A DNA stretch of 50,243 bases, taken from contig NZ_SZNH01000030.1 in NCBI RefSeq assembly GCF_005869855.1, forward strand, positions 25,647 through 75,889, written 5' to 3'. The position numbers and the translations under genes were made by a program. The notes beneath the pieces are model-generated. The model searched no databases and had not been told where the DNA came from. It saw only the letters and a list, made by a program, of their open reading frames with translations. Every line of letters starts with the position of its first letter. Position 1 is the stretch's first letter. This stretch comes from Nostoc sp. PA-18-2419. GTDB lineage: Bacteria; Cyanobacteriota; Cyanobacteriia; Cyanobacteriales; Nostocaceae. Positions 16,635-20,321 of this stretch are shown in pieces.

Positions 16635-19600
16635 TTATAATTTAATCCCCAAAACTTGAGTATAAGCTCCTCGTGCTTGAGTAACGCCAATTGTGCGTTC
16701 GGCTGATTCTATCATCGGACGACGCAAACTCACAACTATAAATTGTGCTTGTTGTGACTGTTGCTCGATCATTCTAGCTAATCGCTCGACGTTTGCCCCA
16801 TCCAAAAACATATCTACTTCGTCAAACGCATAAAATGGCGATGGGCGGTAACGTTGCAAGGCAAAGATAAAACTCAAGGCTGTGAGTGATTTTTCTCCCC
16901 CAGACATGGAAGCTAGACGCTGTACTGGTTTACCTTTAGGATGGGCAACTAAATTTAAGCCACTACTAAATGGATCTTCGGGATTTTCTAGTTGTAGGTA
17001 GCCGTCACCGTCAGATAGGATGGCGAAAATCGATTGAAAGTTTTCATTGACGGCATCGAAAGCTTCTTTAAAAGCAAGTTGCCGCAATGTGGTAAAGTTT
17101 TCAATCCGCAAGAGTAATTCCGTGCGTTCGGCTTCTAACGTCTCTAATTTTTGCGTTAGTTCTTGAAGGCGGTTTTGGGTGCGTTCGTATTCTTCCAACG
17201 CCAACATATTCACAGGTTCCATCGCCTGCAAGCGTTTGGTAAGCGATCGCAATTCTTTCTGCAATTCTTCCAAGTCTACTTTATCTGGAACTTCTGGCAG
17301 CGGATTGGGTAATTCTGCTCCCATATCGCGCAGTTGACTTTGCAATGTAACTAGTTCTTCCCGCCGCTTTTCTTGGGTTTCCTGGAGTTTTTGGATTTCC
17401 CATTCTAATTGTTGTTGGCGCAAAAGTTGCGATCGCACTTCCTGTTCTGTGGTATCGCGTTTTTGTTTTTGTTCGCCTAATTTTTGCTCCATTTGGGTCA
17501 ATGATAAACGGGTTTGGGCGATTTGGTCGTTTATCGTTGTGATCTGGCTGGAGACGTGATGAATCGCGTCTCTACAAGAGGTTTGTTGGGTTTCGTATTC
17601 TGTGATTCGGGTTTCGGCTTCTTGGGTTTTTTCTTGTAGGCGCTGTTGCTGGTTTTCTAAATTTTTTAATTTTTGTTCGGCTTCCCTTAAAGCTGCTTCA
17701 CGTTGTTGTAATTGTTGCTCTTGAATTTTAATCGTTGCTTGGATTTGTTGCCATTCACTGGGGGTTTGGGAGGCTTCTAACTCTGCTAAGGCATGTCGTA
17801 ATTGTTGCAGTTTAGTTTCTTGTCCTGGTAATTCCTGCTCCAAAACCTCTAGACGAGATTGAGCAACGGCTAATTTTTCCGTGTTTTGGATTAATTGCGA
17901 TCGCGTCCCCTCTAATTGTCCAGTTAAATTCTTAATATCCTTGTGCAACTGTTCCAATTGCAACTGTTGTTCCCGCCGCGCCTGTCGCGTTTCTGTTAAT
18001 TCTTGCGTCAATTGTTTGGTTTTAGTTGACAAAGTAGCGATCGCTTCAGTGCAACGCTGTAAAATTCGCTCAATGTCCAACAAACGATTTCTTAAACCAA
18101 TAGCTTCATCAGATTCCGCCGCTTCCCCGGTACCAAACCGCAACGCCGAACGTTGAGTATTACTACCACCAGTCATTGCACCGCTGGTTTCCAACAATTC
18201 CCCGTCTAAAGTAACGATGCGATACAGTCCTAAATTTTTCCGCGCCGCCTCAAGGTTGGCAAACACCACCGTATTACCGAAAACATAGCTGAATACATCT
18301 TGATAACGGCGATCGCAATCAACTAAATTCACAGCGTAGTTAACAAAACCACTAGCAAAACGCAGCGTTGCATCTTGGGTAAATTTGGGAGCGTGAATTT
18401 TATTCAGCGGTAAAAAAGTCGCCCTCCCTGCACGTTTCTGTTTAAGCAGTTCAATACCCGCTGCGGCGATACTGTCATCTTCCACCACAATATGTCCCAA
18501 GCGTCCACCAGCAGCCATTTCCAAGGCTAGCTGATGGCGGGGTTCCACTAGTCCCAACTGCACAACTAAGCCGCAAACACCAGGCATTCCTGATTGTAAG
18601 ATAACTTTACTAGCTTGGGTTCCTTGGACTTCTTGCTGTGCTTGCGCTTGCGCCTCGATTTTATCCAACTGGCGTTGTTTTTCTCGTTGTTCAGAAAGTA
18701 ACCGTTTTTGGGTTTCTTGTTGGATTTGCAGTTCTTGTTCTGTGGCTGAGAGATTTTGGGCTAAATTTTGGATGGGTTCGCTAGAGGTGTTAAATTCCGT
18801 TTCAACTCCACTACACTGAGTTTGTTTTTCTGCTAATAGCGGTTCGTCGCGTTCAATTAACTGGGTTTGCTCTTGGATGAGTTGTTGTAACTGGTTATTG
18901 CGTTCCCTCAGTTGTGCTTGTTCCGTGCGTTGCGGTTCGAGAGTTTGCAGCAAAGTTTCAATTTGACGGTTATACGCCGTTTGTTGCTGCACCCAGGCCT
19001 CCGAAGCCGAGGCGATTTCTGCGGCTGCTTCGCGGGAGGTTTCTAAAGCTTGCTGTGCTTCATTTCTCTGCTGTTGTGAAGACGCGATGAATCGCGTCTC
19101 TACAAGTTGGGTTTCGGCAATTTCTTGGAGGGAATGGCGGTGTTGTTGAATCTCCTGCTGAGTTTGAGCTAGACGCTTAGCAGTTTCTTGGGAAGTTGTT
19201 TGTAATTCCGTTTGCTGACGCAATAATTGTTTGCGTTCTGCCTCTTGGGTAGCCAGGGTAGATTGTACCGCCAAAAGCTCATCTTCTCCCAAAGCCTTAA
19301 CATGGGCATTGAGTTCTTCCAATTGGGCAGTTTTTTGAACAATCTCGGAATTCAAAGTTGTCAGTTGCGTATTCAGTTCCCCAGAATTGCGATCGCCACT
19401 TTGAATTTCACCAACCAACTTTTCTTGTTGTGCTTGCAGCGAACGCCAAGATAAAACAGCTTCCCAAGATTGCTTGGCGAGAAATTCTGCCCGAAGTTTT
19501 TGATACTTCTCAGCTTTAGCCCGATCTTGAGAAAGGCGATCGCGTTGTGCAGTTAATTCCGTCTCAATAATCCGACAGCTATCTTCCTTTTCCTTCACCT

Positions 19601-20321
19601 CATCTAAAGTGCCTTTGGCTTGATTAATCTTGCGATCAAACGCCGCCACCCCAGCCAATTCATCAATAATCTCTCGCCTCTCCCGCCCATTCATCGAGAT
19701 AATACTGGTGACATCCCCCTGCAACACCACATTGTATCCTTCAGGATAAATCCGCAGATTATCTAATTCCTCGTGCAACTCGGTGAGCGTACAACTGACA
19801 CCATTGATATAGTAATTCGACGTATAAGTTCCCTGGTGAGTTACTCGCAACTTCCGAGTCACACTCCACTCAGCCAACTTTGGATTTTGAACTTGAGATT
19901 TAAGAATCTCTTCCCCAATTTCCCCAACTTCCTCCTCTTCCTCCTCTTCTCCTCTCTGCGCCTCTGCGCCCACCGTTCGCGAAGCGTCTCCCTTAGGAGA
20001 AGTTTTAATCGGCACAAGCCCCCGCTCAAACTTTTCTCTGCGTGAAACTTCATCCGACAAATCAAACGTCACCGTAACACTAGCCTCAATCGCAGCCCGC
20101 CCCTTAGCTGTTTGAGTATTATTTACCAAATCCGGCAAGCGATCGGCTCGCATTCCCTTAGAACTAGCGAGTCCCAAACAAAACAGCAGCGCATCCAAAA
20201 TATTTGATTTACCCGAACCATTCGGCCCAGATATGACAGTAAACCCCGGCAGCAAAGGGACTTGGGTAGTACCGCCGAAGGATTTGAAGTTGCTAAGTTC
20301 CACGCGCTTGATATGCACCAT
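16635..20321 (-). CDS. smc: Chromosome segregation protein SMC
   Basis: The ATPase that compacts and segregates chromosomes, acting as a dimer with ScpA/ScpB. All key parts are visible in 1228 residues: Walker A GPNGSGKS (32-39), Q-loop region VVLQGDVTSIISM, first coiled-coil arm, hinge (about 545-700, VCGLVVQLGLVEPRHQLALEMAAGGRLGHIVV...GAMTGGS), second arm, signature MSGGEKSLTALSF (about 1138) and Walker B YAFDEVDMFLD (about 1165). Three segments look repeat-derived: residues about 106-149 in the head, about 406-414 in the first arm and about 914-923 in the second arm. The ATG at 20321 gives MVHIKRVELSNFKSFGG, the canonical start. Neighbour: PRC-barrel gene downstream. Confidence 0.97.
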   Translation of the reverse strand: MVHIKRVELSNFKSFGGTTQVPLLPGFTVISGPNGSGKSNILDALLFCLGLASSKGMRADRLPDLVNNTQTAKGRAAIEASVTVTFDLSDEVSRREKFERGLVPIKTSPKGDASRTVGAEAQRGEEEEEEEVGEIGEEILKSQVQNPKLAEWSVTRKLRVTHQGTYTSNYYINGVSCTLTELHEELDNLRIYPEGYNVVLQGDVTSIISMNGRERREIIDELAGVAAFDRKINQAKGTLDEVKEKEDSCRIIETELTAQRDRLSQDRAKAEKYQKLRAEFLAKQSWEAVLSWRSLQAQQEKLVGEIQSGDRNSGELNTQLTTLNSEIVQKTAQLEELNAHVKALGEDELLAVQSTLATQEAERKQLLRQQTELQTTSQETAKRLAQTQQEIQQHRHSLQEIAETQLVETRFIASSQQQRNEAQQALETSREAAAEIASASEAWVQQQTAYNRQIETLLQTLEPQRTEQAQLRERNNQLQQLIQEQTQLIERDEPLLAEKQTQCSGVETEFNTSSEPIQNLAQNLSATEQELQIQQETQKRLLSEQREKQRQLDKIEAQAQAQQEVQGTQASKVILQSGMPGVCGLVVQLGLVEPRHQLALEMAAGGRLGHIVVEDDSIAAAGIELLKQKRAGRATFLPLNKIHAPKFTQDATLRFASGFVNYAVNLVDCDRRYQDVFSYVFGNTVVFANLEAARKNLGLYRIVTLDGELLETSGAMTGGSNTQRSALRFGTGEAAESDEAIGLRNRLLDIERILQRCTEAIATLSTKTKQLTQELTETRQARREQQLQLEQLHKDIKNLTGQLEGTRSQLIQNTEKLAVAQSRLEVLEQELPGQETKLQQLRHALAELEASQTPSEWQQIQATIKIQEQQLQQREAALREAEQKLKNLENQQQRLQEKTQEAETRITEYETQQTSCRDAIHHVSSQITTINDQIAQTRLSLTQMEQKLGEQKQKRDTTEQEVRSQLLRQQQLEWEIQKLQETQEKRREELVTLQSQLRDMGAELPNPLPEVPDKVDLEELQKELRSLTKRLQAMEPVNMLALEEYERTQNRLQELTQKLETLEAERTELLLRIENFTTLRQLAFKEAFDAVNENFQSIFAILSDGDGYLQLENPEDPFSSGLNLVAHPKGKPVQRLASMSGGEKSLTALSFIFALQRYRPSPFYAFDEVDMFLDGANVERLARMIEQQSQQAQFIVVSLRRPMIESAERTIGVTQARGAYTQVLGIKL
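17552..17580 (-). repeat. Palindromic dispersed repeat inside smc, second arm
   Basis: AGACGTGATGAATCGCGTCT followed by CTACAAGAG. It differs from the copy at 19080 at one position in the palindrome. Read on the minus strand it encodes SCRDAIHHVS within the second coiled-coil arm. Confidence 0.8.
19080..19106 (-). repeat. Palindromic dispersed repeat inside smc, first arm
   Basis: AGACGCGATGAATCGCGTCT is a 20-bp palindrome with 9-bp arms around GA, followed by CTACAAG. Read on the minus strand it encodes LVETRFIAS, a different frame from the copy at 17552. Elements of this type are common between genes of filamentous cyanobacteria. Confidence 0.85.
19875..20006 (-). repeat. Composite dispersed repeat inserted in the smc ATPase head
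   Basis: This stretch combines three intergenic-type repeats: a TTTGGATTTTGAACTTGAG element near 19880-19905, a C/T-rich tract (19910-19955), and CTCTGCGCCTCTGCGCC...TTCGCGAAGCGTCTCCC (about 19955-20000). It is translated as residues about 106-149, including a run of seven Glu, between the head segment VSRREKFERGLVPI and EWSVTRKLRV. Confidence 0.75.

Follow-up and report, generated by a model that had tools for sequence, protein, structure and literature searches.

A dispersed GTAG-tagged palindrome read in two frames of a cyanobacterial smc gene, with arm length unchanged

The stretch of DNA considered here, 50,243 nucleotides from Nostoc sp. PA-18-2419 (NCBI RefSeq assembly GCF_005869855.1, contig NZ_SZNH01000030.1, positions 25,647 to 75,889) and called the window in what follows, carries the gene smc for the chromosome-segregation ATPase SMC. 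Our subject is a short palindrome that occurs twice in this gene, once in each arm of the coiled coil of the protein, whose SMC heads (SMC_N) and SMC_hinge are both recognized by Pfam (Table 1). The two 20-mers, AGACGTGATGAATCGCGTCT at 17552 and AGACGCGATGAATCGCGTCT at 19080, differ at one base. A first-pass annotation, made from the letters alone, had noticed this pair, its one-base difference and its translation in two frames, and we reproduced the positions as well as the readings. Within the 50-kb window, matches to AGACGCGATNNATCGCGTCT at no more than two mismatches are restricted to these two copies.

On the coding strand both copies read CTTGTAG, then AGACGCGAT-TC-ATC(G/A)CGTCT. The arm 2 copy has its GTAG tag on the coding-strand 5′ side and a degenerate foot on the other; the arm 1 copy is oriented in the same way. 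Translation of a consensus copy gives CRDAIHRVST in one frame and VETRFIASLQ in another, while the third is stopped by the TAG inside the GTAG tag. Because the tag closes one frame, two are left translatable, and SMC uses both.

Table 1. Features of the smc gene, in positions of the window
Feature	Positions	Strand	Remarks
smc, chromosome-segregation ATPase, 1228 aa	16635..20321	-	open reading frame; Pfam SMC_N 1.1e-60, SMC_hinge 5.5e-28
Arm 2 REP-like palindrome, core 17552-17571 (20 bp)	17548..17575	-	SCRDAIHHVS, residues 915-924
Arm 1 REP-like palindrome, core 19080-19099 (20 bp)	19076..19103	-	LVETRFIAS, residues 406-414
22-residue head insertion EKFERGLVPIKTSPKGDASRTV, other repeat sequence	19971..20036	-	residues 96-117; unique in the 103-SMC alignment
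Glu-rich hypervariable head loop GAEAQRGEEEEEEEVGEIGEE...	19872..19970	-	residues 118-150; length and sequence vary across the genus

A dispersed family and a transposase gene

The annotation took the palindrome for a dispersed element acting at the DNA level in two frames of one essential gene, and named rarity in the genome as what would speak against this. It is not rare, and its copies across the genome bear the proposal out: the window's own genome has the longer GAGACG form at 70 places when up to two mismatches are allowed (a reversed control gave 0), and AGACGCGATNNATCGCGTCT itself in 44 exact copies. Exact copies of the core are present in all 35 same-genus genomes counted, with 12 to 265 copies per genome, and a second core, AGACGTTNCATGNAACGTCT, is found in other Nostocales genomes; P1 and P2 stand for the first and second core types in the counts across genomes. 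Very small dispersed repeats were reportedly described in Nostoc and other heterocystous cyanobacteria by Elhai et al. in 2008.

Apart from the two in smc, 48 of the 70 matches were listed and read for their surroundings, 50 in all. No open reading frame (ORF) of at least 150 aa covers the palindrome at 38 of these 48 places, and one of the ten covered ones (L066) resembles a leader upstream of where an aconitase-C-type protein starts, so that nine remain. All nine use the DAINRVS or DAMNRVS frame, so that SMC arm 1 is the sole user of the VETRFIAS frame among the 11 in-gene copies. Seven of the nine hosts are named by Pfam: MutL, a UvrD-type helicase, a CobN/Mg-chelatase (BchH-type), a Y1 transposase, a POR-type oxidoreductase, a penicillin-binding protein and a caspase-domain protein; the eighth has response-regulator and DUF3685 domains, and a Pfam search gave no match for the ninth; the 775-aa ORF in L061 has none.

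With its 9-bp stem AGACGCGAT, its loop of 2 nt and its GTAG foot at one end of the stem-loop, in many copies and within the range of 20-40 bp, the palindrome resembles the GTAG-tagged repetitive extragenic palindromes (REPs). In the sections of Di Nocera et al. (2013; PMC3733652) on which we draw, these are short dispersed palindromes that form a 2-nt loop and carry GTAG at one end, mostly extragenic and in part intragenic; the families reported there from Anabaena/Nostoc or Cyanothece are GTAG-12, -15 and -16, and genes for replication and repair are among those said to have a REP inside. Since a short dispersed palindrome, a GTAG tag and a transposase gene beside the repeat come together here, the element fits a GTAG-tagged REP, and like those just cited it is intragenic at some places, smc, mutL and a UvrD-like gene being examples. 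In many species it takes a 28-bp 'double foot' form. Such REPs, as presented in parts of a second paper (PMC6006769), have a GTAG foot that is matched at the opposite end by its reverse complement, CTAC; Trichormus and other genomes show this arrangement, but not the window copies, which begin with CTGG and GTGA.

The transposase gene is an ORF of the own genome (G000:C32, ~104,051-104,698; Pfam Y1_Tnp 1.9e-07), with one palindrome inside, two within the 300 bp upstream, and at its 3′ end a degenerate copy. By eye we read in it the motifs NHIH, RWQ and YIINNP. The same parts of PMC6006769 give NH[IFV]H, WQ and YIxNNP for TnpA_REP subclass 2.4, and in-frame REP copies inside the gene, between HuH and Y, as its unique feature; the layout at G000:C32, with REPs bordering the gene and lying inside it at this very place, the frame being kept, is the same. 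We term the gene TnpA_REP-like because its score against the curated NCBIfam model NF047646 is below the cut-off, and it is probably this gene, of the subclass 2.4 type, that mobilizes the element. Thirteen regions were picked by hand, partly for matches split in two, one of them (G059) since palindromes had already been seen there. A subclass 2.4-like ORF is present in 11 of the 13, and the palindrome adjoins it in seven (L205, L209, L211, L212, L213, L214 and L217), lying inside the gene as well in six of them; the core at these genes is the second one in Trichormus (L205) and the first in the other six. The remaining four regions with such an ORF (L206, L207, L208, L210) have no palindrome. 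Over a wider interval (G000:C32:102500-110000, L217) there are three palindromes within ~650 bp, the degenerate one, and another 4.3 kb off. We also considered a general link of REPs to all REP-associated tyrosine transposase (RAYT)-like genes and rejected it, 29 of 30 loci being without a nearby palindrome: the association holds for one subfamily only, among the picked regions.

Arm length and turnover of the cores

The annotation went on to regard the arm copies as insertions that add length, and it is here that we depart from it. From 113 SMC rows, 10 that were short, broken or non-cyanobacterial were left out, and in the resulting alignment arm 1, from head to hinge, measures 366 residues in 79 and 367 in 24 of 103 SMCs. 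Between the hinge end and the arm 2 site there are 202 residues in 90 of them, 203 in 10 and 205-206 in 3, and the alignment over arm 2 is gap-free. A further 27 SMCs, whose sources extend from the same genus to other classes of the phylum, gave 366-367 for arm 1 in 23 and 363-365 in three; the remaining one was unalignable at the arm 1 site (444). SMCs with and without palindromes therefore have equal arm length. It had been suggested that insertions of similar length in both arms keep the arms in register, an idea that fails because the arm segments add no length and leave nothing to compensate. In a model of residues 375-950 computed with AlphaFold2 (mean predicted local distance difference test score 85, 46 rows), both sites are within long unbroken helices, ~155 and 181 residues, counted along the sequence, from the hinge ends of their own helices; they are therefore probably not opposite one another. 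Nor were target duplications found beside the copies, the longest shared flank word being 4 bp at both, when 3-4 bp is usual at random places. Conservation of the arm residues across cyanobacterial SMCs, which the annotation had named as fatal to its proposal, exists in part: they are conserved in most of the genus, and not across cyanobacteria.

The added length that marks in-frame palindromic insertion of the Rickettsia type is absent at arm 1 (366-367 in 103/103) and present in BchH. We read 24 BchH loci (of 29, five being without a motif match): the same REP occupies one loop at 10 of them, the loop counting 15-20 residues with one copy and 26 with two. Without evident repeat (seven loci) it has 11-14 residues, in one instance 21.

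Seven more rows (five genome duplicates and two shorter sequences) were set aside for counts on 96 SMC genes. These genes hold 77 palindromes of the smc type, gathered at very few places: 43 at residue ~410, the arm 1 site, every one in the VET frame, and 32 at residue ~920, the arm 2 site, 31 of them in the RDA frame, that of L045 in the other; residues ~510 and ~740 have one each. At arm 1 the core itself changes with the lineage. It is CGATTCATCG in most of the genus, TTACATGTAA in Nostoc NMS4, TTCCATGGAA in Trichormus and a Dolichospermum-like genome (G188), TTGCATGCAA in Scytonema and TTTCATGAAA in UBA11370. The SMC tree requires at least 15 state changes at arm 1 and 19 at arm 2, counts that include decay and recombination.

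Do these cores follow those that are resident in the genome? Over 80 genomes (G020 and G028 being without an aligned SMC), and with a loose criterion, 29 of 34 P1-type arm 1 sites belong to genomes where P1 exceeds P2, 3 to genomes with P2>P1, and 2 are ties; P2-type sites belong to P2>P1 genomes in 8 of 11 instances. The match may be very close. In G188, 26 of 28 genome copies are TTCCATGGAA, identical to the smc core; in Trichormus (G059), 19 of 25 listed copies are the smc arm 1 variant; in G150, 29 of 33 copies are of one variant and smc is one base off (the smc copy is counted in all three). In Scytonema (G063) 13 of 14 listed copies are TTGCATGCAA, the core also found at arm 1.

The palindrome at residue ~510 gives one well-resolved case of a length-neutral overwrite. 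Scytonema NIES-4073 has there a third palindrome, GTAGAGACGCGCCATGGCGCGTCTCTAC, where Brasilonema, its sister in the SMC tree (support 96), has codons for VETEFNTS; [VIL]ETEFN is the state of 48 of the 96 SMCs. Over this site the two sisters are identical at 12 of 28 positions, against 84% gene-wide, and the length is unchanged. A 400-kb sample of the Scytonema genome has CGCCATGGCG as its most frequent core (7 of 10). The palindrome at residue ~740, in Mastigocoleus, stands at a low-confidence hinge-arm junction and comes with three additional residues.

How the arm copies may have arisen

We consider it reasonably probable that REPs drive a length-neutral rewriting of SMC coiled-coil codons, by a molecular route that we infer. 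REP sequence would take over arm codons that already exist, in the single frame compatible with the local helix, and since it would occupy codons already present the arm would keep its length. The arm 1 site would have been re-typed repeatedly in the course of evolution, usually with the lineage's own resident core. Resident REP DNA would be the donor, overwriting the codons either by ectopic conversion or, as single strands, by annealing at the replication fork. The coiled coil would then filter out any change of length, and surface loops, those of the SMC head and BchH, would tolerate it and accumulate repeats as ordinary insertions. A bolder version, which we offer as a conjecture and would not bet on, has the REP machinery free short single-stranded REP DNA that anneals at the fork to partly similar sequence and overwrites it, in the manner of a natural oligonucleotide recombineering; proteins of fixed length, such as the SMC arms, would gather only length-neutral overwrites, and a codon site would be re-typed as the resident REP family changes.

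Other accounts must be weighed. Simple independent insertions into the arms, the proposal of the annotation, agree with the differing frames and sites, and the same REP does give clean length-changing gains in BchH, and partly in the SMC of Mastigocoleus; but they are refuted as to net length, the arms being equally long with or without palindrome and the arm 2 alignment showing no gap, and we give them very little credence. The palindromes might instead be ancient and in place, their later differences due to point mutation and hairpin-templated correction, with no donor copies. Non-palindromic relatives share the motifs (of LETxxIxSL type at arm 1 and of RDAIxRVS type at arm 2), imperfect arm 1 palindromes are common in Anabaena-like taxa (10-13 of 14 pairs), and hairpin correction keeps the length; yet neither the match of the cores to the genome's dispersed variants nor the gain at residue ~510 in a single lineage, where half of the SMCs have the [VIL]ETEFN motif, is explained in this way, which makes it a rather unlikely account of the whole. 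We find it improbable, too, that smc alleles are mosaics in which homologous recombination between species swaps short tracts, the palindromes travelling with their flanks. Two sister SMCs, L076 and L105, do differ across the arm 1 tract, and Nostoc NMS4 (L030, G006) resembles Nostoc MG11 (L105) in its arm 1 core and flanks, yet its SMC groups with that of P1-type Nostoc. Recombination of this kind only redistributes palindromes: it creates neither them nor their match with resident families. Finally, retention of the palindromes as functional DNA or RNA hairpins, or as protein-binding sites in smc, is hardly credible: compensated core changes at one codon site speak for it, but 50 of the 96 SMC genes, close relatives of carriers included, have no arm 1 palindrome by the criteria of the state-change count, and the palindromes seen belong to dispersed families only. 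Hairpin self-correction and inter-species recombination probably contribute as well to what we see.

Several facts weigh against REP-driven rewriting. The smc core of UBA11370 is a minor variant of its genome (2 of 11 copies, smc itself included), at odds with a match to the resident core; P2-type arm 1 sites are present in three genomes with P1>P2 (G006, G060 and G076); P1-type sites in P2>P1 genomes, three in the loose count, are two in the 96-row set; and L098 and L120 have a P1-type site when neither core is in the genome. Once relatedness is corrected for, core tracking comes down to three independent pairs, with one genus dominating, and a sign test is not significant. The flanking codons of G006, being like those of Nostoc MG11, point to ordinary recombination between species. 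At residue ~510, the resemblance to REP of the sequence that preceded the overwrite is modest (70 of 3641 windows score as high), strong resemblance of target and REP being found only where the relative may itself hold a decayed palindrome. The changed tract there extends past 28 bp and neighbouring codons differ too, so that local hypervariability is possible. As to the machinery, the transposase gene scores 47.8 bits against NF047646, where the cut-off is 80, and the palindrome is absent within ~1.5 kb from 29 of 30 RAYT-like transposase loci, the exception being the gene of the own genome.

Intragenic REPs are already known, and are described as insertions in the parts of PMC3733652 and PMC6006769 on which we draw; in the former they are inserted in, or interrupt, ORFs, unlike the copies in the SMC arms, and the words 'smc' and 'coiled' are absent from its main text. 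With the double-foot REPs of PMC6006769, again as far as those parts go, we share 28-bp palindromes in several species, transposase motifs and in-gene REP copies, and we differ in the NF047646 score of the own-genome gene and in the single foot of the window copies. The palindromic elements of Rickettsia, palindromic repeats that lie in frame within protein genes and are described as inserted (they are mentioned in passages of PMC3733652), are like the SMC arm sites in being in frame and unlike them in that no length is changed here; they are likened by description, not by sequence. In mitochondria of Nematomorpha, genes whose protein product remains functional have perfect inverted repeats embedded in them (PMC6649704); unlike the REP of this study they are not presented, in the abstract of that paper, as a dispersed mobile family. 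Palindromes in cyanobacterial SMC had no identifiable description in the open-access literature searched, subscription literature being mostly outside the search and matches having been judged mostly superficially. We see a single REP family behaving in two ways: surface loops gain length (that of BchH from this family, that of the SMC head from other repeats), and the SMC coiled coil does not. Should the length-neutral route prove general, it would provide a testable way for mobile DNA to rewrite essential proteins, and it bears on how REPs spread.

Repeats in the SMC head and further observations

The annotation had placed a third, composite insertion at 19875-20006, in the head. Part of it is indeed derived from a repeat with copies elsewhere in the genome, but the span was wrong, for it straddles two features, the 22-residue insertion EKFERGLVPIKTSPKGDASRTV and the variable Glu-rich loop next to it, which is the older of the two. 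None of the other 102 aligned SMCs has the 22-residue insertion or shares any 5-mer with it. DNA resembling the insertion and its borders is found at three other places in the own genome, and a similar peptide in G014 and G022. In other Nostoc (L024, L033, L036 and L037) the head loop holds different repeat-like peptides (RLSEAEVQNRSTERLVLSEVEVSRS; LRVRQSPIDGNRQDGGYLTK). The BchH loop behaves likewise as a hot spot for in-frame repeats: at the other seven loci it holds further repeat-like sequence.

Repeats of yet another kind are found at the arm 2 site. Heptanucleotide arrays, (CTCAGCA)n for example, encode 7-residue repeats (LSTQHSA) there in L036, L037, L052, L076-L079, L082 and others, and in every case a stop-free 7-nt repeat encodes a heptad; a heptanucleotide score of at least 17/21 is reached in 16 of 96 SMC genes and in 0 of 343 background windows. 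At residue ~1016 the SMC of UBA11370 (L117) has ~130 additional residues, rich in heptanucleotide repeats and partly N-masked. In L042 (G020), the smc frame is broken at residues ~855-887, giving pieces of 856 and 390 residues.

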